From positions 310,001 to 374,000 of the forward strand of contig NZ_JAJOMA010000003.1 in the NCBI RefSeq assembly GCF_021129235.1: a stretch of 64,000 nt of DNA. Direction: 5' to 3'. Within the stretch, counting starts at the first letter, position 1. Each line of letters opens with the position of its first letter. The notes under the pieces are model-generated. The model was not told where the DNA came from. It did no database searches and saw nothing but the letters and a program-made list of their open reading frames with translations. Made by a program: the position numbers and the translations under genes. This document shows positions 15,757 to 42,046 of the stretch, in pieces. The stretch comes from Kineosporia mesophila (GTDB lineage: Bacteria > Actinomycetota > Actinomycetes > Actinomycetales > Kineosporiaceae).

Positions 15757-15962
15757 AACGCCCGGACGTACCTCGCCCGCGATTCCCACCCCGGGCCACT
15801 TCCGCGCGATCACGAGCAGGGGACGCGACGGTTGCCATCCGGTCCGGGCCACCCATCGCGATGTGTACACATCGCGATCTTCTCGGTCCGCGCCAGGCTT
15901 CACACCCGGGAGGTACCGCATGATCACGAACGAGGGGACACCGGCGCGGGCGAACCGCTGCC
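15757..15962. repeat. Convergent intergenic region with 24-bp perfect palindrome and flanking direct repeats
   Basis: No gene. A 24-base perfect palindrome without spacer occupies 15855-15878; its half site is ATCGCGATGTGT. Related direct repeats flank it: GATCACGAGCAGGGGAC near 15808-15824 and GATCACGAACGAGGGGAC near 15920-15937. It lies between the 3' ends of usp (plus) and mftD1 (minus), where an operator is not expected. It may be a protein-binding or cruciform site; a terminator role is possible but there is no T-tract. Confidence 0.6.
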
Positions 15963-26769: not shown

Positions 26770-26852
26770 CGTGATCATGCAAAACCTCCCCGGAGTTCTA
26801 GAACTGTCGACTTCAGAGTTCTAGAACGCTGGGGAGGTTTTGCATGATCACG
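26770..26852. repeat. Large palindromic element between convergent TPR gene and mftF
   Basis: Two perfect 22-base arms (26770-26791 and 26831-26852) of the type GTGATCATGCAAAACCTCCC flank a 39-base centre. The centre itself holds two copies of the small palindrome GTTCTAGAAC (about 26794-26803 and 26818-26827). The right arm overlaps the mftF stop codon. It can act as a two-way terminator and is the most complete member of a repeat family found also at 31083, 35568, 37466 and 42124. Confidence 0.85.
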
Positions 26853-32264: not shown

Positions 32265-33581
32265 TCAGCTCGCGCCGGATCCGGTCTCGATCCCGGGATC
32301 GAAGCCGGCGAGCGGATTCTCGTCGCATCCCCGGGCCGGCGGGGCGGAGACCACCCCGATGGCCGGGCGTACGCCGAGCGTCAGCGCCACCGGCTTCTTC
32401 TTGTTCTTCTGCTGGCTGCGCAGCGGGTTCTTGTGCGAGTGGTCCAGGCTCGGCTTCGGGACGACGCCCTCCACCGCACTCAGTGCGCTCTCCCCGAGAC
32501 CACGCACGCACTCGGGGTCCGGCCCGTCCAGCGGCAGGCCGGTGAAGAACTTGGCCGCCATGCAGCCACCCCGGCAGGAGTCGAAGAAGTTGCAGGACTT
32601 GCACGCACCGCCGTCCTGCGGCTGACGCAGTTCCCGGAAAAGGTCCGACGTCTGCCAGACGCCCTTGAAACCGCCCTCGTCACGGACGTTCCCGGCCTTG
32701 AACTCGTCGTGGATCGCGAACGGGCAGGCATACACGTCGCCCACCGGATCGATCAGGCAGACGACCCGGCCCGCACCACAGAGGTTCAGGCCCGGCAGGG
32801 CGTCACCGAACGCGGCGAGGTGGAAGAACGAGTCACCGGTGAGCACCTGGTCGCCGTTCGCGACCAGCCAGTCGTAGAGCTGCTTCTGCTGGGGGGCCAG
32901 CAGGTGCAGCTCGTCCCAGACGTCCGCGCCGCGGCCCGAGGGGCGCAGCCGGGTCAGCCGCAGCTGGGCCTGGTACTTGTCGGCGATCGCCTTGAACTCG
33001 TCGAGCTGGCCGACGTTCTGGCGGGTGACCACGACGGACAGCTTGAAACCGCTGAAGCCGGCCTCGTACATGTTCTGCATGGCCCGCATCGCGGTGTCGT
33101 AACTGCCGGTACCGCGCACCTGGTCGTTCACCTCGGCGGTCGCGCCGTCGAGAGAGATCTGCACGTCGACGTAGTCGGAACGGGCCAGCCGCTCGGCCAC
33201 TTCCCGGTTGATACGCACACCGTTGGTGGAGAACTTCACGCCGACGTGGTGCGCGGTCGCGTAGTCGACCAGGTGCCAGAAATCCGGTCGCACGGTCGGC
33301 TCGCCACCACCGATGTTGACGTAGAAGACCTGCATCCGCTCCAGCTCGTCGATGACCGCTTCGGCCTCGGCGGTGGACAGCTCGCGGGGGTCCCGCCGGC
33401 CGGAACTCGACAGGCAGTGCACGCAGGCGAGGTTGCAGGCGTAGGTCAGTTCCCAGGTCAGGCAGATCGGCGCGTCCAGCCCGAGGGCGAACTTGTCGAC
33501 CAGACGACCCGGTGAAGGGGGCGGGCTCGGGGGATTCGGGGTGAAACCGGCCGGGGTAGCCGGTTCGAGCACAGCTGTCAT
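32265..33581 (-). CDS. mftC: Mycofactocin radical SAM maturase MftC
   Basis: 438 residues. Radical SAM cluster motif C49-x3-C53-x2-C56 (TYACNLACVHC), SAM-binding GGGEP (91-95), and a SPASM domain in the last third with many Cys (CGAGRVVCLIDPVGDVYACPF in part, CKSCNFFDSCRGGCMAA). MftC decarboxylates the C-terminal Tyr of MftA and crosslinks it to Val, with two reactions on one peptide. The C-terminal ~45 residues (HKNPLRSQQKNKKKPVAL...) are a long variable tail. ATG overlaps the mftB stop (ATGA). Confidence 0.97.
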   Translation of the reverse strand: MTAVLEPATPAGFTPNPPSPPPSPGRLVDKFALGLDAPICLTWELTYACNLACVHCLSSSGRRDPRELSTAEAEAVIDELERMQVFYVNIGGGEPTVRPDFWHLVDYATAHHVGVKFSTNGVRINREVAERLARSDYVDVQISLDGATAEVNDQVRGTGSYDTAMRAMQNMYEAGFSGFKLSVVVTRQNVGQLDEFKAIADKYQAQLRLTRLRPSGRGADVWDELHLLAPQQKQLYDWLVANGDQVLTGDSFFHLAAFGDALPGLNLCGAGRVVCLIDPVGDVYACPFAIHDEFKAGNVRDEGGFKGVWQTSDLFRELRQPQDGGACKSCNFFDSCRGGCMAAKFFTGLPLDGPDPECVRGLGESALSAVEGVVPKPSLDHSHKNPLRSQQKNKKKPVALTLGVRPAIGVVSAPPARGCDENPLAGFDPGIETGSGAS

Positions 33582-33922
33582 GCGGTGTCCTCCGCGGGCG
33601 AGGTCGTTCTCGGGCGGATCAGGTCACCCGCCGCGAGCGAGGCCAGGGCCCGGCCCAGGACCGGGAGCTGGGCCGGGTCGACCCCCGCCGCCAGGCACGC
33701 GGACCGCGCGCTCGGGGCGGTGGCCAGAGCGTTGACGACGTCCAGTAGTTGACGGGTCTTCAGGAACGACAGGCGCCGGTTCCCGAAGTGATACATCAGG
33801 GCCCCGAAGGGTTCCGGCCGCACGGAGACGCTGGGGTGCAGCTCCCAGGCTCTGTCCAGCAGGTCGAGGCCCGGGTCCGGGGCCGGGGGCGGCACCGACA
33901 TGCGGTTGGTCTGCGTCGTCAC
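33578..33922 (-). CDS. mftB: Mycofactocin peptide chaperone MftB (RRE domain)
   Basis: 114 residues. The body (DRAWELHPSVSVRPEPFGAL, then MYHFGNRRLSFLKTRQLLDVV) is the PqqD-like RRE fold typical of MftB, which binds the MftA leader and hands it to MftC. Flanking tails are Pro/Thr-rich. It lies 13 bases after mftA and overlaps mftC by 4 bases, consistent with tight coupling. Confidence 0.95.
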   Translation of the reverse strand: MTTQTNRMSVPPPAPDPGLDLLDRAWELHPSVSVRPEPFGALMYHFGNRRLSFLKTRQLLDVVNALATAPSARSACLAAGVDPAQLPVLGRALASLAAGDLIRPRTTSPAEDTA

Positions 33923-33935
33923 GGCCTCGCGCCGA

Positions 33936-34046
33936 TCAGTAGACGCCGCACATCCCGTCGATGGAGACCTCTTCGACCAGCAGTTCCTCGACGTTCGTGG
34001 CGTCCTGGCCCTCGACGACGTCCTGGGGAGCGCTCGTGATGTTCAT
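33936..34046 (-). CDS. mftA: Mycofactocin precursor peptide MftA
   Basis: A 36-residue peptide from ATG 34046 to TGA 33936, found by translating the gap upstream of mftB. It begins MNITSAPQDV, has an acidic middle (NVEELLVEEVS) and ends in the family hallmark IDGMCGVY. The last Val-Tyr pair is the part MftC modifies and MftE releases. AGAGAGG lies about 9 bases upstream of the ATG. First gene of the mftABC operon. Confidence 0.97.
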   Translation of the reverse strand: MNITSAPQDVVEGQDATNVEELLVEEVSIDGMCGVY

Positions 34047-34090
34047 CGAAACGACCTCTCTTCCACGGTTAACGACTTTGTCCTGGCGAG

Positions 34091-34119
34091 TTTATGACAC
34101 TGCGTGTCGTAAACGTCAA
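34091..34119 (-). promoter_or_regulatory. mftA promoter overlapped by palindromic operator
   Basis: On the minus strand -35 TTGACG (34119-34114) and -10 CATAAA (34096-34091) are exactly 17 bases apart, about 45 bases before the mftA ATG. The arms TTTATGACAC (34091-34100) and GTGTCGTAAA (34104-34113), 9 of 10 matching around TGC, cover the -10 and the spacer. This is a typical repressor layout. Since mftR is divergent from here, MftR is the likely binder. Confidence 0.75.
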
Positions 34120-34185
34120 GGGTGGTTAGATGGCACCGCATGACTCGCAGGGCGGGTCACGACCACGAAGGAGTGTGCGGCACAG

Positions 34186-34800
34186 ATGTCATCGGGGTCT
34201 GCAGCACGATCTGAACCCCGTAGCGGCCGCCCCCGCGCCACGAGCCGCGACGCCCTCGAGCGCATCGCCCTGGAGCTGTTCGCCGAGCACGGTTTCGAGG
34301 CCACCACGGTCGAGCAGATCGCCGACCGGGCCGGAGTCAGCCGGCGCACCTTCTTCCGTTATTTCGACACCAAGGCCGACGTGCTCTGGTCGGAGTTCGA
34401 CGCCGAGGTGCAGACCCTGCACCGGCTGCTCGCCGAGGCCCCGGCCGGCCAGTCCCTCACCGAGGCCGTCAAGCAGGCCGTGCTGACGGCCAACCATTAC
34501 GGGGTGGACGACGTCGCGAGCCTGCGGGCCCGCATGGAGGTCGTCACCAACGTGCCCGCCCTGAACGCCGCCTCGACGATGCACTACGACAGCTGGGCCG
34601 GTGCCCTGGCCGAGTTCGCCGCCCGCCGCCTGGGCCTGCAGCCCGACGACCTGATCCCCCAGGCCATCGGGTTCAGCGCGCTCGGGGTGTGCCGGGCGGC
34701 CTTCGACCAGTGGGTCGCCCGCCGCGACGCCGATCTCATCAGCTACCTGGATCAGGCCCTCTCCGCCTGGCAGACCGGGTTCGCCGGCCTCGAGCAGTAG
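34186..34800 (+). CDS. mftR: TetR-family regulator MftR
   Basis: 204 residues from ATG 34186 (GAAGGAG about 12 bases upstream). The N-terminal helix-turn-helix is clear (LFAEHGFEATTVEQIADRAGVSRRTFFRYF); the C-terminal ligand domain is typical of MftR (VLWSEFDAEVQTLHRLL, LISYLDQALSAW). In mycobacteria MftR represses the mft operon and is released by long-chain acyl-CoA. It diverges from mftA and probably binds the 34091-34113 palindrome. Confidence 0.93.
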   Translation: MSSGSAARSEPRSGRPRATSRDALERIALELFAEHGFEATTVEQIADRAGVSRRTFFRYFDTKADVLWSEFDAEVQTLHRLLAEAPAGQSLTEAVKQAVLTANHYGVDDVASLRARMEVVTNVPALNAASTMHYDSWAGALAEFAARRLGLQPDDLIPQAIGFSALGVCRAAFDQWVARRDADLISYLDQALSAWQTGFAGLEQ

Positions 34801-35663: not shown

Positions 35664-36881
35664 GTGACTGACGGCCCCACCACACTCTCCCTGGAGGAAT
35701 TGGCTCCCGAGGCCGGTGTCCTGCGCATCTACCGTCAGGTCTTCTCCGTCCTGGCCCGTGAGCACGGGGCGATGATCAGCGACGTCGAGCTGCTCGACAT
35801 CGACGAGGCGATCCTCGCCGCGTTCGCCGATGCCGGGAACGAGGGCCTGACCCTGGAGTCGGCCGTCGCGGCCTGCCGGCGCCACGATCCCGCCTCCGTG
35901 ACCCGCCGGTTCGAGGTCCTGCGGGGCTACGGCGCGATCACCCGCGTCGTCGATCATCCGGGCGAGCGATTCCACCGCGCGGCGTTCGCGCCCTACGTGA
36001 TGCTGCTCTTCCTGCGCCGCCTGGCCGCCGCCGGTGGTCAGGGCGAGCTGCACCAGCTGCTCGCCCTGGAGGGCCTGAGCATCCGCTCGCCGGGCGCCGT
36101 GGCCGACGACGGCCGGGGCTCGGTGAACCGGCTGTCGCGGGTGTTCCGCCTGATGGCCAACCAGCTCTCCAGTCTCACCACCACCAGCCCGGTCGAGGAG
36201 CTGCGCGAGCACGCCGAGCTGCTGTGGGGCAACCGCGCCCTGATCAGCCAGGCCGAGGACGTGCACGCACAGGCCCTGCAACGCTGGCCCGAGCTCGACC
36301 GCGAGTGCGCCCAGCTGCGCACCGCCCTGGCCGCCTACGCCGACTCCAGCGAGTCCGCCGCGGCCCGGCTGATCGAACAGGCCGGTTCCACCCGGGCGCT
36401 GGGTCTGCTGCCGGTCGAGACCTGGCGCAGCTTCGCGCGGACCTCCGACGCGCAAACCCTGGCCGGGGTGCTCGACGGGCAGGTCTTCGACGCCGTCGCC
36501 CCCTGGTTCTCCCCGCAGGCCATGGCCCTGGCCGTGGAGAACGCCTCGAGCTCGGGCCCGGTCCGGATGCCCCCGCCGCGTCCCACCGGCGACACCGACG
36601 CCCCCACCGACCGGCCGGTCGCCGGGGACTGTGACCTGCGCGAGTTCACCGACCGGGTGCTCGCCCACCGCGACCGGGTCGGGGTGTCCCAGCTGCTCGA
36701 CGACGCGCAGGACTGGATGGACGGGCGCCGCACCCTGTCCCTGCTGGTCGCCTCCCACCACTCCCCCGAGGTGGACGCGGAACTGACCTGGGCGGACGGC
36801 TTCCGGGTCGATCCGCAGGCCGCGGTGCCGTGGGTGTCGGGCGGGATGTTCGGTCGGGTCGTGGGGTCGGGGAACGCGTGA
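35664..36881 (+). CDS. Kleisin-like (MukF/JetA-type) subunit of an SMC operon, tentative
   Basis: 405 residues from GTG 35664. The N-terminus looks like a winged helix (LRIYRQVFSVLAREHGAMIS... SVTRRFEVLRGYGAITRVVDH), then a helical region with heptads (SRVFRLMANQLSSLTTTSPVEELREHAELL, RCAQLRTALAAYADSS) and a second small domain at the C-terminus (FTDRVLAHRDRVGVSQLLDDAQDWM). This order is what MukF and JetA kleisins show, but sequence is too far to be sure. First of four coupled genes; its stop overlaps the next GTG. Confidence 0.55.
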   Translation: MTDGPTTLSLEELAPEAGVLRIYRQVFSVLAREHGAMISDVELLDIDEAILAAFADAGNEGLTLESAVAACRRHDPASVTRRFEVLRGYGAITRVVDHPGERFHRAAFAPYVMLLFLRRLAAAGGQGELHQLLALEGLSIRSPGAVADDGRGSVNRLSRVFRLMANQLSSLTTTSPVEELREHAELLWGNRALISQAEDVHAQALQRWPELDRECAQLRTALAAYADSSESAAARLIEQAGSTRALGLLPVETWRSFARTSDAQTLAGVLDGQVFDAVAPWFSPQAMALAVENASSSGPVRMPPPRPTGDTDAPTDRPVAGDCDLREFTDRVLAHRDRVGVSQLLDDAQDWMDGRRTLSLLVASHHSPEVDAELTWADGFRVDPQAAVPWVSGGMFGRVVGSGNA

Positions 36882-37600
36882 ACACCGCTGACACCGCCCT
36901 GTGGTGGGCGCGCGCCCGCGCGCTCGGCCCCGCCCGGCACGAGGCCGGCACGCCCGCTCCCGACGGTTTCCTGCGTCTGCTCGAGCCGCACGCCGGCGAC
37001 GTCTGGCTGCTCCCTGCCCATCCCGGCACGGCCGGACCGTGGGTGCTCGACGAAATGGGTTTCAGCGGACCCACGATTGAGCAGCCCAACGACACCGCGC
37101 GGATGCTGGCCGCCGTCGTCCGCTGCTGCTGGACCGATCCCGAAGCCCCGATCTGGCCCGGGCGGGAGGTTGACTGGGAGACCGTGCTGTCGGTCTACCG
37201 CACGTTCGGTGACCGGGAGGAATCCGTGCTGAACCGCGCCGCCACCGGCGCGATCCGCCGTCTCAACGGCGGCGGCTGGGTGCTGTGGGACGACGACCGC
37301 CGGGTCGTGCGTCTCGGCCCGCGCTGTGGCACCTGGGTCAACGCCGACCTCACCGTGCTCCGTGAGCTCTACCGCAGCCTGCCGCCCCCGGAAGAGCCGG
37401 AGGAGGACGAGGAATACGGGGAGACTCCGCCGGATCACGACCAGGGTGCCGGCTCCACCCCCGTCCGTGATCAGGCAAACCTTCCCGGGCCCCCGGCTGA
37501 TGACGATGATGCGGTGGACGCCTCCATGATGGACGCGGATGCGCACCTGCGTGAGGTCCCCGCCTCCGTGGGTGAAGAGGACCGGGGTGATCCGGCGTGA
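36878..37600 (+). CDS. Winged-helix-like (possible KITE/MukE-type) protein of the SMC operon
   Basis: 240 residues from GTG 36878 inside the previous stop (GTGA). The central part (VDWETVLSVYRTFGDREESVLNRAATGAIRRLNGGGWVLW in order) reads as a winged helix with a beta hairpin, as in KITE subunits. The C-terminal 60 residues are acidic and disordered, and contain the residues RDQANLPGPP encoded by a copy of the dispersed repeat (37466-37489). No enzyme motif. Role as SMC-kleisin partner is inferred from operon position and size. Confidence 0.5.
   Translation: MNTADTALWWARARALGPARHEAGTPAPDGFLRLLEPHAGDVWLLPAHPGTAGPWVLDEMGFSGPTIEQPNDTARMLAAVVRCCWTDPEAPIWPGREVDWETVLSVYRTFGDREESVLNRAATGAIRRLNGGGWVLWDDDRRVVRLGPRCGTWVNADLTVLRELYRSLPPPEEPEEDEEYGETPPDHDQGAGSTPVRDQANLPGPPADDDDAVDASMMDADAHLREVPASVGEEDRGDPA
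37466..37489 (+). repeat. Dispersed repeat copy inside a coding region
   Basis: CGTGATCAGGCAAACCTTCC plus CGGG matches the element at 31121-31143 nearly base for base, but here it is read in frame and encodes RDQANLPG in the acidic tail of the protein. Confidence 0.7.
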
Positions 37601-38334
37601 GCGAGATGGAGATGCATCCCGCGTTCACCGCGGCCGTGGCCGACCTGTCCGAGCGGCACCGGGACGAGGTGCTGGCCGCCTACGCCGCCGTCGAGCACAG
37701 CTGGCAGCCGCTGCACGAGTCGCAGATGCTGGCGCTGCGCGACGCCACGCTGCGCCGGGCGCTCCAGCAGATGCTGCACCCGCTGGGCCGCACGCTGGTC
37801 AAGGTCGGGCCGCACCTGTGGACGTCGGGCTACCGCGACGACATCGCGCGGGAGCTGTCCGAGGAGATGCTGGAGTCGCTGCCGCTGGTCGACCGGGCCG
37901 TGTTCGTGCTGATCCTCATCCACTCGGTGGCGATCCCGCGCAGCCAGGGCCTGATCGATCAGGACACCTGGATCTCGAACCAGCCGACCTCGGTGGAAGA
38001 ACTGAACCGCTACTCCCGGCTCCCGCGCACCGCGGTCCGCACCGGGCTGGCCCGGCTGCGGGCGTCCGGGCTGGTGCAGATCGCGCCCGACCGGCGTCCG
38101 CACCAGGCCCGCGGGAGCAGCAACACCAACGCGGGGGCGTCCTACCTGCCCGGACCACAGCTGGCGCGACTGACCCCCGCGGCCCGTCGCCGCCTGCAGG
38201 AAGAACTCATCCTCGCGGCCGGCGCGGACACCCCCCTGGCGGCCGCGATCCGGGCGCGACGGGCGCGCCCGTCGGAAGACGGCGTCCTCAAACCCTCGGC
38301 ACCGGAAGCAACTGAAACGCAGGAGAACTCGTGA
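37597..38334 (+). CDS. Second winged-helix-like (KITE/MukE-type) protein of the SMC operon
   Basis: 245 residues from GTG 37597 (overlap GTGA). Residues about 85-160 include DRAVFVLILIHSVAIP and a winged-helix segment TSVEELNRYSRLPRTAVRTG followed by LARLRASGLVQIAP. The protein is helical before that and basic/disordered at the end (AAIRARRARPS). Two small DNA-binding-fold proteins beside a kleisin-like and an SMC gene is the expected make-up of a MukBEF/Wadjet-like condensin. Family not recognised outright. Confidence 0.5.
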   Translation: MSEMEMHPAFTAAVADLSERHRDEVLAAYAAVEHSWQPLHESQMLALRDATLRRALQQMLHPLGRTLVKVGPHLWTSGYRDDIARELSEEMLESLPLVDRAVFVLILIHSVAIPRSQGLIDQDTWISNQPTSVEELNRYSRLPRTAVRTGLARLRASGLVQIAPDRRPHQARGSSNTNAGASYLPGPQLARLTPAARRRLQEELILAAGADTPLAAAIRARRARPSEDGVLKPSAPEATETQENS

Positions 38335-41300
38335 GCACGCCACCGATGATCGACCGCAACGACCCGACCGACATCGTCGGTCCGCGGGTGCTGGTCGGCG
38401 TGCAGATGGTCGACATCTCGCGACTGTCGGCGCACCCGGTACCGCTGACCAACGGCGGACTCATCACCGTGGCCGGGCAGGGGCCGAAAGACTCCAACGG
38501 CGCGGGGAAGTCGTCGTTCATCGCGGCCCTCAGCCTGCTGCACGCGGACGAGCAGTGGCGGCTGGCCGGAGGCGCCCCGGGCGCGGCCGAGCTGCTGTTC
38601 ACGGCGGAACTCGCCGCCCAGGAGGCCAAGTGGGCCAACGCCGATCACGGTTTCGTGATCGGGGTGTTCGCCGACCCGGCGTCGCAGACCCAGGAGGAGC
38701 TGGAGGCCGGCGCGCTGACGGTCTGGCTGCGGATCAACCGCAAGTCGCCGTACCTGAGCCTGCGCTGGGTGCGGGGGCTGCACGTGCCCTACGGCTCGAA
38801 CGACGCCGAGCGCGCGGCCGGGGTAGAGGGTCTGTGGAACCGGCTGCCGCACTCCAACGGGCGGGACGACTTCCACGCCGGGCGGCTGGCCCGGGTGCTG
38901 TACGGCGGCCAGGTGCGCTGTGTCTCGTTCCTGTCCACGTCCGTACGCGCGTCCCCGGCGGCCAACCTCCTGGCCCAGCCCCTGAACGAGCTGTCCCCGT
39001 GGCGGATGTTCGACGCCGTCGCGACCCTCACCGGGCTGGACCGCGAGCTGGAGCAGGAGCAGGCACTGCGCTCGGGTGAGCACGCCCGGCGCACCGACGT
39101 GGCCGAGGCCGAGCACGACCTGTCCACCTGGCAGCGCGAGATGGAGGGCGTCGAGGCCGGGATCAAGCGCCGCGACCGGGCCCGGGAGATTCTCGGCGAG
39201 GCCCGCGAGACCTGGCGCTCGCGGTCGGCCCGGCACGTGGTGGACGGCCTGGAACAGCTGGCCCAGCTGCGCACCAACCTCGGTGACGTGCGCGGTGGGC
39301 AGGCCCAGGCGCGCGCGCAGCTGGCCGAGAACGAGGCCCGGATGGAGGAACTCGGCAACGACGACGGTCTTCAGGAGACCTTCCGGGAGACCGAGCGGCT
39401 GCGCAACGAGCTGCGGGAGCGGCGCAGCAACGCCGATACCCAGGCCCGGATGAACCTGCGTTCCGTCGAAGAGCTCAGCGCGAAACTGCGCGACCTGAAA
39501 GAGGCGGCGCGCGCGGCCGACGGCCGCGACGTGACCCGGGCCCGCGAGGAGGTGGGCGCGGCGCAGGAGGCGCTGGAGGCCGTGATCTCCCGCCGCGGTG
39601 CCGCCGAGGACGCCGTGGCGTCGGCCGCCCGGCAGGTGAAGGCCGCCGAGGCCGGAGACGATGTGGCCGCGCAGCAGCTGAAACTGCTGCAGAAGGCCGG
39701 GATCCCGGTCGCCAGCGTGGTCGACGTGCTGGACCTGGGCGAGAAGGAGCGGGCGGTCTGGGAACCCCGGCTGGTGCCCTACCGTCACGCCGTCGCGGTG
39801 CCGGCCGGTCAGGCCGACGCCGCGCGCGACGCCCTGGCCGGTGAGCCCGGCTCGATGATCGTGCTGGCCGACGGTCAGCCGTCCGACGACCTCCCGCGCA
39901 GCACCACCGACGAGTTCGGTCTCGCCACGTTCCTGAAAGCCCTTGACTCGCGCGCCGGTTCACGGCACGAGCACATGGACGACGCGGCCGGCGTGATCGT
40001 CGTGGCCGGCTTCGACCGCCCGCTGACCGGGCGGGACGCCCGGGTGAAGGCCGCCCGCGAGCAGCACGTCCTGACCGTCGAGATGCTCGAGCAGATCGGC
40101 ACCGCCCTGGAACGGGCCCGGGCCAAACTGGTCACGGCCAGCTCCCGGCTGGAGGGGGCCAAGGCGGCGCAGCAGGTCGAGGACGCCGAGGTCGGCATCG
40201 AGCGGCTGCGCGAGCAGGCGGGTGAGCTGCAGGAGGCCCTGGAAGAACTCCTCGGCCCGCTGGAAGATGCCGAGGCCGCACACACCCGGGCCGCCGTCGA
40301 CCGGCAGACCCGGCTGGACAAGATCAACACGCTGCGCGGCGAGGTGACGCGCAGCCGGGCCGAGGTGAAGAAGTCCGAGGAGATCGCCGAGAAGCTGGAG
40401 GCCGAGCTGCGGGCGGTCGACGTCGACGCCCGGGCCGTGGCCTGGGGCGCCACGTCCGGCAAGGCCGAGGACCACCTGCTGACCCTGCCCGAGGACGAGC
40501 AGCGGCGCAGCACCACCGAATGGAACAACCTGGTCTCCAACCACCTGGAAGACGTTCTGCGGCGCTGCTTCCCGGACAGCACCGCGGCCCAGGAGTACCC
40601 GGCCGAGCTGCGGGAGCTGGTGTTCGAGCAGAACTGGCGGCGCAGCACGCTGGAGGCCCAGGTGCCCCTCATCCCCGACCTGATGCGGGCCCTGCGCACC
40701 CACCTGGACGTGACCGCGCAGCAGGACGCGCACGACCAGGCGATGATCGACCAGCAGCGGGCCCAGCGCCGCGCCGACCTCGAGGCCGCGCGCGCCGGTC
40801 TGTCCGAGTCCGAGCAGACCACCCGCGCCCACCGGTCCGTGCTGGCCCAGGGCATCAAGGCCAAGCTGAAGCTGGTCGCGGACGAGTTCGACCGGCTGGA
40901 CCGGGAGTACGGCGGGTACGGCGCCGGGCTGGACTATCCGGAGCCGGAGCCGCCGACCGAGCCGGACAAGCCGTGGCGCTGGAGCCTGACGCCGCGCTGG
41001 CGCCGGGCCGAGAACCAGCGCATGTCCAGCTACAACCTGCGGGCCAACACCGCGCAGATGGACGAGAAGGCCGTGAAACTGGTCTGCGCCTCGGCCCTGG
41101 CCGGCGGTAACGACCGGCCGCTGCTCCTCATCCTCGACGAACTCGGCCGCAACCTGGGCAAGCAGCACCGCCGCGAGGCCGTGGCCCTGTTCGAGCGGAT
41201 CGGCCGCGACCGCAACATCACGGTGATCGGTGCGCTGCAGGACGACATGGAGCGCTACGCCATCGAGGCGTCCAACCTCTACATCAAGCTGCGCCGCTCG

Positions 41301-41450
41301 TCCGACGCGGTGGCCTACAACGACCCGCCGATCGTGCTGGGCGACGACGCCAACCGCTCCCGCGTCGAGATGCTGCGCGAGTGGATGGCCGCCTACCGCC
41401 CGACGTCGAAGAACATCGACGTGCGGGAGGACGAGCTCGACCTGGCTTAG
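38331..41450 (+). CDS. SMC/MukB/JetC-like ATPase
   Basis: 1039 residues from GTG 38331 (overlap GTGA). Walker A GPKDSNGAGKSS at 51-62 (Lys60). Long coiled coils at about 230-440 and 570-860 (e.g. MEELGNDDGLQETFRETERL). Between them is a globular hinge-like part at about 445-560 (VWEPRLVPYRHAVAVPAGQ, GSMIVLADGQ). Walker B LLLILDE ends at Asp936/Glu937, with the following D-loop region LGRNLG. No standard LSGGQ is seen; SALAGG near 920 may stand in. It is the motor of the operon. A plasmid-defence or chromosome-organising role is possible. Confidence 0.85.
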   Translation: MSTPPMIDRNDPTDIVGPRVLVGVQMVDISRLSAHPVPLTNGGLITVAGQGPKDSNGAGKSSFIAALSLLHADEQWRLAGGAPGAAELLFTAELAAQEAKWANADHGFVIGVFADPASQTQEELEAGALTVWLRINRKSPYLSLRWVRGLHVPYGSNDAERAAGVEGLWNRLPHSNGRDDFHAGRLARVLYGGQVRCVSFLSTSVRASPAANLLAQPLNELSPWRMFDAVATLTGLDRELEQEQALRSGEHARRTDVAEAEHDLSTWQREMEGVEAGIKRRDRAREILGEARETWRSRSARHVVDGLEQLAQLRTNLGDVRGGQAQARAQLAENEARMEELGNDDGLQETFRETERLRNELRERRSNADTQARMNLRSVEELSAKLRDLKEAARAADGRDVTRAREEVGAAQEALEAVISRRGAAEDAVASAARQVKAAEAGDDVAAQQLKLLQKAGIPVASVVDVLDLGEKERAVWEPRLVPYRHAVAVPAGQADAARDALAGEPGSMIVLADGQPSDDLPRSTTDEFGLATFLKALDSRAGSRHEHMDDAAGVIVVAGFDRPLTGRDARVKAAREQHVLTVEMLEQIGTALERARAKLVTASSRLEGAKAAQQVEDAEVGIERLREQAGELQEALEELLGPLEDAEAAHTRAAVDRQTRLDKINTLRGEVTRSRAEVKKSEEIAEKLEAELRAVDVDARAVAWGATSGKAEDHLLTLPEDEQRRSTTEWNNLVSNHLEDVLRRCFPDSTAAQEYPAELRELVFEQNWRRSTLEAQVPLIPDLMRALRTHLDVTAQQDAHDQAMIDQQRAQRRADLEAARAGLSESEQTTRAHRSVLAQGIKAKLKLVADEFDRLDREYGGYGAGLDYPEPEPPTEPDKPWRWSLTPRWRRAENQRMSSYNLRANTAQMDEKAVKLVCASALAGGNDRPLLLILDELGRNLGKQHRREAVALFERIGRDRNITVIGALQDDMERYAIEASNLYIKLRRSSDAVAYNDPPIVLGDDANRSRVEMLREWMAAYRPTSKNIDVREDELDLA

Positions 41451-42046
41451 GAGCCGGACCCCAGGGCGAGGGTCAGGGACGTGTGTTCCAGCAGTCTCGG
41501 GTCGTGGGTCGAGGTGACGACCAGCGTTCCCTGACCGACCTGGTCGAGCACGGCATCGATGACGCGGCGGGCGTTCTCGTCGTCCTGGTGACCGGTCGGC
41601 TCGTCGAGGACGACGAGCTGGGCGCCGGGCAGCAGGGCCCGGGCCACCGCCACGCGCTGCTGCTCACCGATCGATCCCCCGCCGACCGGACGGCCGGCCA
41701 GCATCCCGACCCCGAGCCGGTCCAGGAGCTCGGCGGCCCGGTCGGGTGCGGCCGGATGACCGGCGGCAAGCGCGGGCAGCACCAGGTTCTCCACCCCGTC
41801 GAGCTCGGCCAGCAGGGCCAGCCGCTGGGGCACGACCGCGATCCGGGCCCAGTCGGCCAGGTCGGCCGTGGGGGTGCCGTCGAGCAGCACCCGGCCCCTC
41901 TCCGGCCGCTCGAACCCGGCGATCAGATGGCACAACGTGGACTTCCCCGAACCCGAGTGCCCGGTCAGCGCGACCAGCATCCCGGGCCCCGCCGTCAGGT
42001 CGACGCCGTCGAGCACCCCGTGCCCGACGTTCTCCACGGTCAGCAT
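41447..42046 (-). CDS. ABC transporter ATP-binding protein (LolD/MacB-like)
   Basis: 199 residues. Walker A GHSGSGKST, Q-loop VVPQ, Walker B LVVLDEPTG and H-loop STHD are all present. The signature motif reads GGGSIGEQQR instead of LSGGEQQR, a degenerate form. It ends 3 bases inside the convergent SMC gene. Directly after the second ATPase gene (42047), so both are coupled. Two different ATPases with one large FtsX-type permease suggests a heterodimer motor. Confidence 0.88.
   Translation of the reverse strand: MLTVENVGHGVLDGVDLTAGPGMLVALTGHSGSGKSTLCHLIAGFERPERGRVLLDGTPTADLADWARIAVVPQRLALLAELDGVENLVLPALAAGHPAAPDRAAELLDRLGVGMLAGRPVGGGSIGEQQRVAVARALLPGAQLVVLDEPTGHQDDENARRVIDAVLDQVGQGTLVVTSTHDPRLLEHTSLTLALGSGS

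Follow-up and report, generated by a model that had tools for sequence, protein, structure and literature searches.

A probably disarmed Wadjet-group SMC complex with an additional subunit in Kineosporia and other actinomycetes

Is a condensin-like operon without an adjoining nuclease gene a chromosome organizer, a disarmed defense system, or a defense system whose nuclease is encoded elsewhere in the genome? This question is raised by four genes, here denoted A, B, C and D, in a stretch of 64,000 nucleotides from Kineosporia mesophila (contig NZ_JAJOMA010000003.1, positions 310,001 to 374,000; hereinafter, the window). The answer we favor, with a probability of about 0.6, is that the operon encodes a disarmed complex of the Wadjet group, with an ATPase of the structural maintenance of chromosomes (SMC) type, a kleisin, a KITE protein and an extra subunit, which is kept for DNA folding. 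The armed form of this complex appears to be patchy in the Amycolatopsis family, whereas the unarmed form appears to be fixed in Kineosporia and Kribbella.

The armed form was found next to the operons of relatives. In loci L011, L012 and L042, a further gene starts where D ends; its product of 419-421 amino acids matches JetD_C, DUF2399 or TOPRIM, with 23.0 bits for JetD_C in L011 (cut-off 22) and 24.0 bits for DUF2399 in L042 (cut-off 23.4). Four distant members score 46.9-50.4 bits with JetD_C, and a distant operon in genome G575, from another class of the same phylum, has the order A-B-C-D-N, where N is the nuclease gene. An intact effector gene adjoins the operon in 17 of the 19 genomes of the Amycolatopsis family in which D was found, a nuclease in 13 and a kinase in 4. 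Three of the 19 (two with the nuclease, one with the kinase) were known from a scan of genome contigs that yielded 41 loci with D, in Kribbella, Jiangella, Amycolatopsis, Saccharothrix and others; the 17 further regions read represent 16 genomes and a degenerate second copy, L190, in genome G798. In these 17 regions, the nuclease gene follows D in eight and lies 5' of A, not 3' of D, in three (L187, L188 and L189), and a kinase fusion is present in three; the remainder are L178, with a broken nuclease gene, and L190 and L191, with neither effector, the latter being a D fragment near a contig end. Some cores are incomplete: L187 showed no B, and the D gene of its genome contains one in-frame stop; L185 has D in pieces and showed no A, B or C. 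The genome of L190 (contig C57) carries an intact nuclease-bearing operon besides this broken copy of C and D.

The unarmed form has a different distribution. D is present in all six Kineosporia genomes searched (K. mesophila and five others), and in one of seven other members of the family; likewise, each of 38 genomes from the genus to which Kribbella soli belongs has D. Neither genus yielded a coupled nuclease. No nuclease gene was detected beside D in the loci of Kineosporiaceae, Jiangellaceae and family f35 (perhaps Streptosporangiaceae) that were read at length. A whole-genome search of the 41 genomes behind the fetched loci found the nuclease in five, full length in three and as an N-terminal part joined to a kinase in two, but in none of the 22 Kribbella-type genomes searched and in no Jiangella. 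In wider draws, D occurs in at least 19 of 390 genomes of the Amycolatopsis family, a patchy distribution, and, with K. mesophila and a remnant in genome G173 included, in at least 29 of 394 from the class; both counts are lower bounds because two candidates per genome were scored. It was also found in 3 of 396 genomes drawn from the phylum, K. mesophila included, and in 1 of 35 genomes of the G173 family, namely, the remnant itself. In that decayed remnant (L091:676-1899), the reading frame of the last 88 or so residues of D continues into a nuclease with internal parts missing. Among viral contigs, 142 stretches matched the search pattern and none encodes a relative. The sole match in a plasmid record, an 11.85-Mb Nonomuraea record, was set aside as presumably a chromosome, and a match of 62 residues in G047 (E = 8.8e-4) was likewise left out of the relatives. 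Locus L027 groups with Kribbella in the D tree, and its genome is among the 38 of the Kribbella search; the title of its record, Streptomyces sp. SID13031, is probably a misnomer.

The operon itself is conserved. Of 41 loci from other genomes, 39 keep the order A-B-C-D; the exceptions are L045, a fragment that holds D only, and L035, in which A, B and C lie in a single, probably frameshifted frame. In the Kribbella-type loci L028 and L037, C and D are separated by about 1.9 kb, whereas elsewhere they lie side by side. The ratio of nonsynonymous to synonymous substitutions is 0.03-0.31 across A-D (nine chosen locus pairs, four genes each), rough values obtained by simple counting in high-GC genes, so that A-D are not chance open reading frames (ORFs); as judged from the sequences, purifying selection acts on the unarmed core. 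None of A, B, C and D is matched by a Pfam or NCBIfam model above the cut-off, the PADLOC matches of the window proteins are weak (the best is mad8 for D, E = 2e-4), and searches of PDB sequences with A-D or with the nuclease yielded nothing decisive; given the lack of above-cut-off matches and the weak PADLOC matches, this family would be overlooked in annotation.

In a quick tree of 37 chosen D proteins, which we rooted between the two deepest clades, the nuclease is present in all 11 rows of one of these clades and is scattered in the other. The label requires at least five changes, of which well-supported branches force four; L178, with its broken gene, was counted as nuclease-bearing, and the fragments L185, L190 and L191 were omitted. 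An earlier tree of 33 chosen rows with bootstrap support agrees on the main groups. From this distribution under the chosen root, we read the nuclease as probably ancestral and lost several times, although the rooting is not firm. The identities of N and D run in parallel in three pairs (84/82, 63/64 and 37/37%).

The effector appears to be exchangeable. In five loci (L014, L034, L176, L177 and L185), the N-terminal part of the nuclease is followed by a protein kinase that replaces TOPRIM and carries HRDIKPAN and DWG instead of DFG; in two of these loci, the kinase half matches PD-T4-6 of PADLOC with E = 1e-30 and 8e-30. In the kinase part, L177 is 81-88% identical to L014, L034 and L176, compared with 45-51% in the N-terminal part and 47-49% in D. 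Likewise, L185 shares 81-90% identity with the other kinase loci in the kinase and 44-50% in the N-terminal part, with 59% for D over the 265 residues left to compare. This combination of high identity in the kinase and low identity in D and the N-terminal part is best explained by operons having exchanged their kinase halves at the boundary between CAP and TOPRIM, where the CAP label follows the description of JetD in PMC10586767. A conserved gene for a protein of 344-352 amino acids lies 3' of the kinase in four of the five kinase loci (Table 1); for the two of its four members that were scanned, no family was found in Pfam or PADLOC. In L176, its place is taken by a transposase-like ORF.

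As to the nature of the complex, the preliminary description of the window, made from the sequence alone, had proposed a divergent condensin-like operon of four GTG-started, coupled genes, encoding a kleisin-like protein, two different small winged-helix-like proteins and a 1039-residue ATPase, with no adjoining nuclease. All four starts were confirmed, each overlapping the preceding stop as GTGA, and in the window the operon indeed encodes two distinct small proteins, with no nuclease gene adjoining it. The Walker motifs of D were also located where they had been described, at residue 51 for Walker A and near 931 for Walker B, and D has coiled-coil-like blocks and a globular middle. Stretches low in proline and glycine (about residues 230-440 and 575-840) flank the more globular middle, about 43 profile columns of which are unmatched in eight of nine f35 loci with fused B and C. 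In the P-loop, Asp54 replaces the usual first glycine and is invariant in 15 rows of the alignment. At the site expected for the LSGGQ-type signature, D reads NTAQMDEK, nearly invariant save for the glutamine, which in our reading is a degenerate ABC signature. The JetC2 profile matches D with E = 0.036.

B was placed by its predicted structure; models were built for A and B, each with 36 of 40 loci plus the window. The model of B (predicted local distance difference test, pLDDT, 75.8) has a tandem winged helix at residues 1-169, followed by a variable acidic tail. The first 10 Foldseek matches are all chains of 176-205 residues from JetABC, MukE-MukF or MukE structures, taken as JetB or MukE by their length, with JetABC chains at ranks 1 and 2 (8dk1_E, E = 4.2e-3, and E = 1.1e-2). 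VIA comparisons, which served as second looks and leave other folds compatible, gave JetABC chains (8as8_C, Z 8.6, 151 residues, 4.2 Å; 8dk1_E, Z 8.3, 152 residues, 4.1 Å), a chain of Nse1-Nse3-Nse4 (Z 8.2, 148 residues) and the MukE-MukF chain 3rpu_E (Z 7.9, 141 residues); as modeled, B is a KITE protein of the JetB type.

The kleisin assignment of A is of low confidence. MukF consists of a winged helix, helices, a disordered linker and a second winged-helix-like part, and the model of A seems to have the same layout: a winged helix at about residues 41-107, helices at 108-240, disorder at 241-320 and a winged-helix-like part at 322-398. In the VIA comparison, residues 40-244 align in one register with three MukF structures, one of them explicitly MukF(1-287) (1t98_B), over 193-202 residues (Z 8.8-9.5; root mean square deviation 6.4-6.6), the longest alignments among the 50 rows listed; MukE-MukF chains are at Foldseek ranks 5 and 9. 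For C, the evidence is a sub-threshold match to MarR_2 (residues 125-167, E = 7e-4), such that C is probably a winged-helix protein; it has no counterpart in Wadjet or MukBEF. In family f35, a single open frame spans B and C in nine of 12 loci read (L092-L100; they are separate in L085-L087), which suggests that the two proteins sit together. In L035 (Fodinicola), A, B and C form a single ORF, which was rejected as a likely frameshift, with a B end unlike that of the family; alignment A7 was left unused for this reason.

Several observations weigh against a disarmed Wadjet relative. The model of A has a mean pLDDT of 62, and its VIA list is topped by a designed repeat (Z 10.5), with unrelated helical and MarR rows near Z 9; neither A nor B reaches a Foldseek E of 0.001. 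When compared with profiles built from 12 actinobacterial JetABCD loci, for which the on-target signal is itself weak, A, B and N attain probabilities of 0.5, 0.3 and 4% with JetA, JetB and JetD, respectively, and the D head attains 24% with JetC in hhalign. In the D tree, the named outgroup does not form one clade, and long branches meet; the tree was also a quick one. A class-wide survey found the nuclease in at least 2 of 394 genomes (K. mesophila and the G173 remnant), and with four candidates scored per listed genome, others could have been missed. Finally, the K. mesophila genome contains, on contig C11 (positions 104791-106026), an intact gene for a nuclease-family protein of 434 amino acids (E = 2.4e-128), so that this genome may not be disarmed, and the identities of its nuclease and D to those of L011 (47 and 56%) are not parallel.

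The C11 gene opens the alternative of a defense system in two parts, with the window core sensing and extruding small circular DNA and the distant JetD-like nuclease cutting in trans. The gene keeps the active-site motifs VMENRQ and PDAD (Glu and Asp-x-Asp), matches DUF2399 above the cut-off (24.0 against 23.4 bits) and has a TOPRIM half whose identity to that of L011 (54%) is nearly the same as that between the D proteins (56%); in a nuclease tree of 16 rows, from which L178 and the kinase fusions were omitted, it is the sister of the nucleases of L042, L011, L012 and L175, a position compatible with the placement of Kineosporia in the D tree. However, in the CAP-like half, which probably serves for docking, its identity to L011 is only 37%, compared with 60% between L042 and L011, and JetD_C does not match it. 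Furthermore, the core is kept in five congeners in which no nuclease of the family was found, so that this type is present in one of six Kineosporia genomes, and in the sister genome (G005), which is 89-91% identical in the pieces flanking the site, about 204 unrelated bases stand in place of about 1.37 kb with the nuclease gene. We consider such a division of labor rather unlikely, although it is the main alternative for K. mesophila. The C11 gene also alters the preliminary description, which had treated the nuclease as simply absent and JetD as not simply displaced, given the convergent gene downstream: that gene is there, but a displaced JetD is possible, and JetD-like genes both adjoin the operons of relatives and occur intact in K. 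mesophila. The survey of actinomycete neighborhoods for a TOPRIM protein that it had proposed found one beside the Amycolatopsis-family operons, contradicting a nuclease-free lineage, and the two roles between which it left the choice, chromosome organizer and undescribed defense variant, more plausibly both occur, each in different hosts.

Under another explanation, the operon encodes an ordinary condensin of the MksBEF type that never had a nuclease in the window branch, the armed relatives having gained theirs. Members of the Wadjet group without a nuclease, such as MukBEF, are already known, according to PMC7617805, and the fixation of the operon in Kineosporia and Kribbella, together with the infirm rooting of the D tree, would fit; the nuclease in all 11 rows of the other deep clade, the divergence of N and D in step in three pairs and the D-N remnant in G173 speak against it and make it, in our estimate, improbable. 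It is more improbable still, to the point of being hardly credible, that D is a Rad50/SbcC, Lamassu (LmuB) or ABC-3C ATPase rather than part of an SMC-kleisin complex. Distant D homologs do match LmuB weakly (L183, E = 3.5e-4; L119, E = 3.8e-3), LmuB not being among the four PADLOC matches of the window D itself, and NCBIfam SMC models match D within the coiled coil, far below the cut-offs, but D has no CxxC motif of the Rad50/SbcC zinc hook, its partners are KITE-like and MukF-like, and the adjacent effectors are of the JetD type.

Among the closest known systems is type I Wadjet (JetABCD, MksBEFG), with an SMC-like ATPase, a probable kleisin and a KITE protein in one operon and, in relatives of the window operon, a JetD-type TOPRIM nuclease; Wadjet types I-III, the make-up of JetD and the cleavage of circular DNA are described in PMC10586767. 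The differences are the extra gene C between KITE and SMC, which departs from three core genes, the lack of JetD in cis in the window and the other Kineosporia loci read, and the near absence of sequence similarity to the window proteins. MukBEF and MksBEF without MksG likewise lack an adjacent nuclease and would share the kleisin, KITE and SMC components, with the model of A closest to MukF, but have neither the extra subunit nor nuclease-bearing sister operons; unlike enterobacterial MukBEF, the window complex would act beside Smc-ScpAB rather than replace it, given that ScpB was found in all six Kineosporia genomes. Smc5/6 with Nse1-Nse3 also has two different KITE-type subunits, a parallel that would hold if C proves to be one, and the model of B matches a chain of Nse1-Nse3-Nse4, but the window system is bacterial and has one SMC protein. 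The defense kinases known in PADLOC as PD-T4-6, mad6 and Stk2 resemble the kinase half of the swapped effector, which differs in standing behind a JetD-like N-terminal part beside an SMC operon and is absent from the window. Among the titles and abstract openings listed in searches of open-licence PMC articles, none describes a kinase-bearing or otherwise new Wadjet type. The survey in PMC7617805 required consecutive matches to MksB, MksF and MksE profiles; operons with a further gene inserted between KITE and SMC might, in our view, go undetected in a survey of that kind. Of 98 genomes of the class, 13 have canonical JetD_C, K. mesophila not among them; genome G113, which groups with Jiangella, has a canonical JetD and, elsewhere, an A-D operon.

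Under the preferred reading of a disarmed complex, a dimer of D would be the ATP-driven motor, A the kleisin bridge, B the KITE subunit and C an additional subunit particular to the lineage of the window operon. The nuclease would have been dropped from the operon in Kineosporia, Kribbella, Jiangellaceae and f35, with the core retained; most likely, the core still entraps DNA and extrudes loops, and it most likely folds DNA or restrains circular DNA without cutting, alongside the ordinary Smc-ScpAB. We infer loop extrusion, the contacts between subunits, the role of C and the present function. A broader proposal, tentative and somewhat short of even odds, is that these operons form a separate SMC branch, with a pair of KITE proteins (B and C, joined in one chain in some f35 members) and a CAP-like adapter bearing a TOPRIM nuclease or kinase that recombination at the edge of the adapter exchanges, the unarmed core of which was domesticated several times independently, from defense to housekeeping.

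Table 1. Coordinates of the operon, motifs of D and other genes (window positions unless a locus is given)
Feature	Position	Strand	Size or residues	Description
Gene A	35664..36881	+	405 aa	MukF-like kleisin (model-based, low confidence)
Gene B	36878..37600	+	240 aa	Predicted KITE subunit, JetB/MukE-like tandem winged helix
Gene C	37597..38334	+	245 aa	Further small subunit, probably winged-helix
Gene D	38331..41450	+	1039 aa	SMC-like ABC ATPase
D, Walker A region	38481..38513	+	residues 51-61	GPKDSNGAGKS
D, hinge-like globular middle	39663..40055	+	about residues 445-575	
D, Walker B	41121..41141	+	residues 931-937	LLLILDE
Downstream neighbor, outside the system	41447..42046	-		Convergent ABC-transporter ATPase
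Gene 3' of kinase	L014:9221-10279, L034:14531-15565, L177:3755-4795, L185:3780-4820		344-352 aa	

The closest named relatives among the genomes compared are Kineosporia rhizophila and K. babensis. The chromosomal setting of the unarmed core is conserved. The convergent ABC-transporter ATPase gene, which shares four bases with the end of D, is present in K. mesophila and the sister genome and is not beside D in three other Kineosporia loci compared, in which, as in the window, the operon stands beside radical-SAM and MftR-type genes. In the window, a Radical SAM/SPASM protein and an MftR-type TetR regulator are encoded upstream (32265-34800), a pairing that we take to be like a mycofactocin cluster. 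In Kribbella, the operon is close to an rRNA operon, with 5S rRNA at the gathering score in four of eight loci; the repeated contig ends 3' of D, considered as a possible chromosome end, turned out to be rRNA genes, and further contig tails are presumably rRNA as well. A perfect palindrome of 44 bases (CGTGATCATGCAGAACCTCCCC followed by its complement; L081:12926-12969) recurs at dozens of places among the matches listed in K. mesophila and the sister genome, and half-copies resembling it occur in the window at 15905, 26770-26852, 31120, 35569, 37466 and 42124, one directly 5' of gene A and another within the tail of gene B.

Armed and unarmed forms of the same core occur in soil actinomycetes that are related and can be cultivated, so that the two roles can be compared directly, which bears on whether anti-plasmid SMC complexes evolved from chromosomal condensins or the other way round. 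The replacement of the nuclease by a kinase would mean that sensing of foreign DNA by an SMC complex can trigger something besides cutting.

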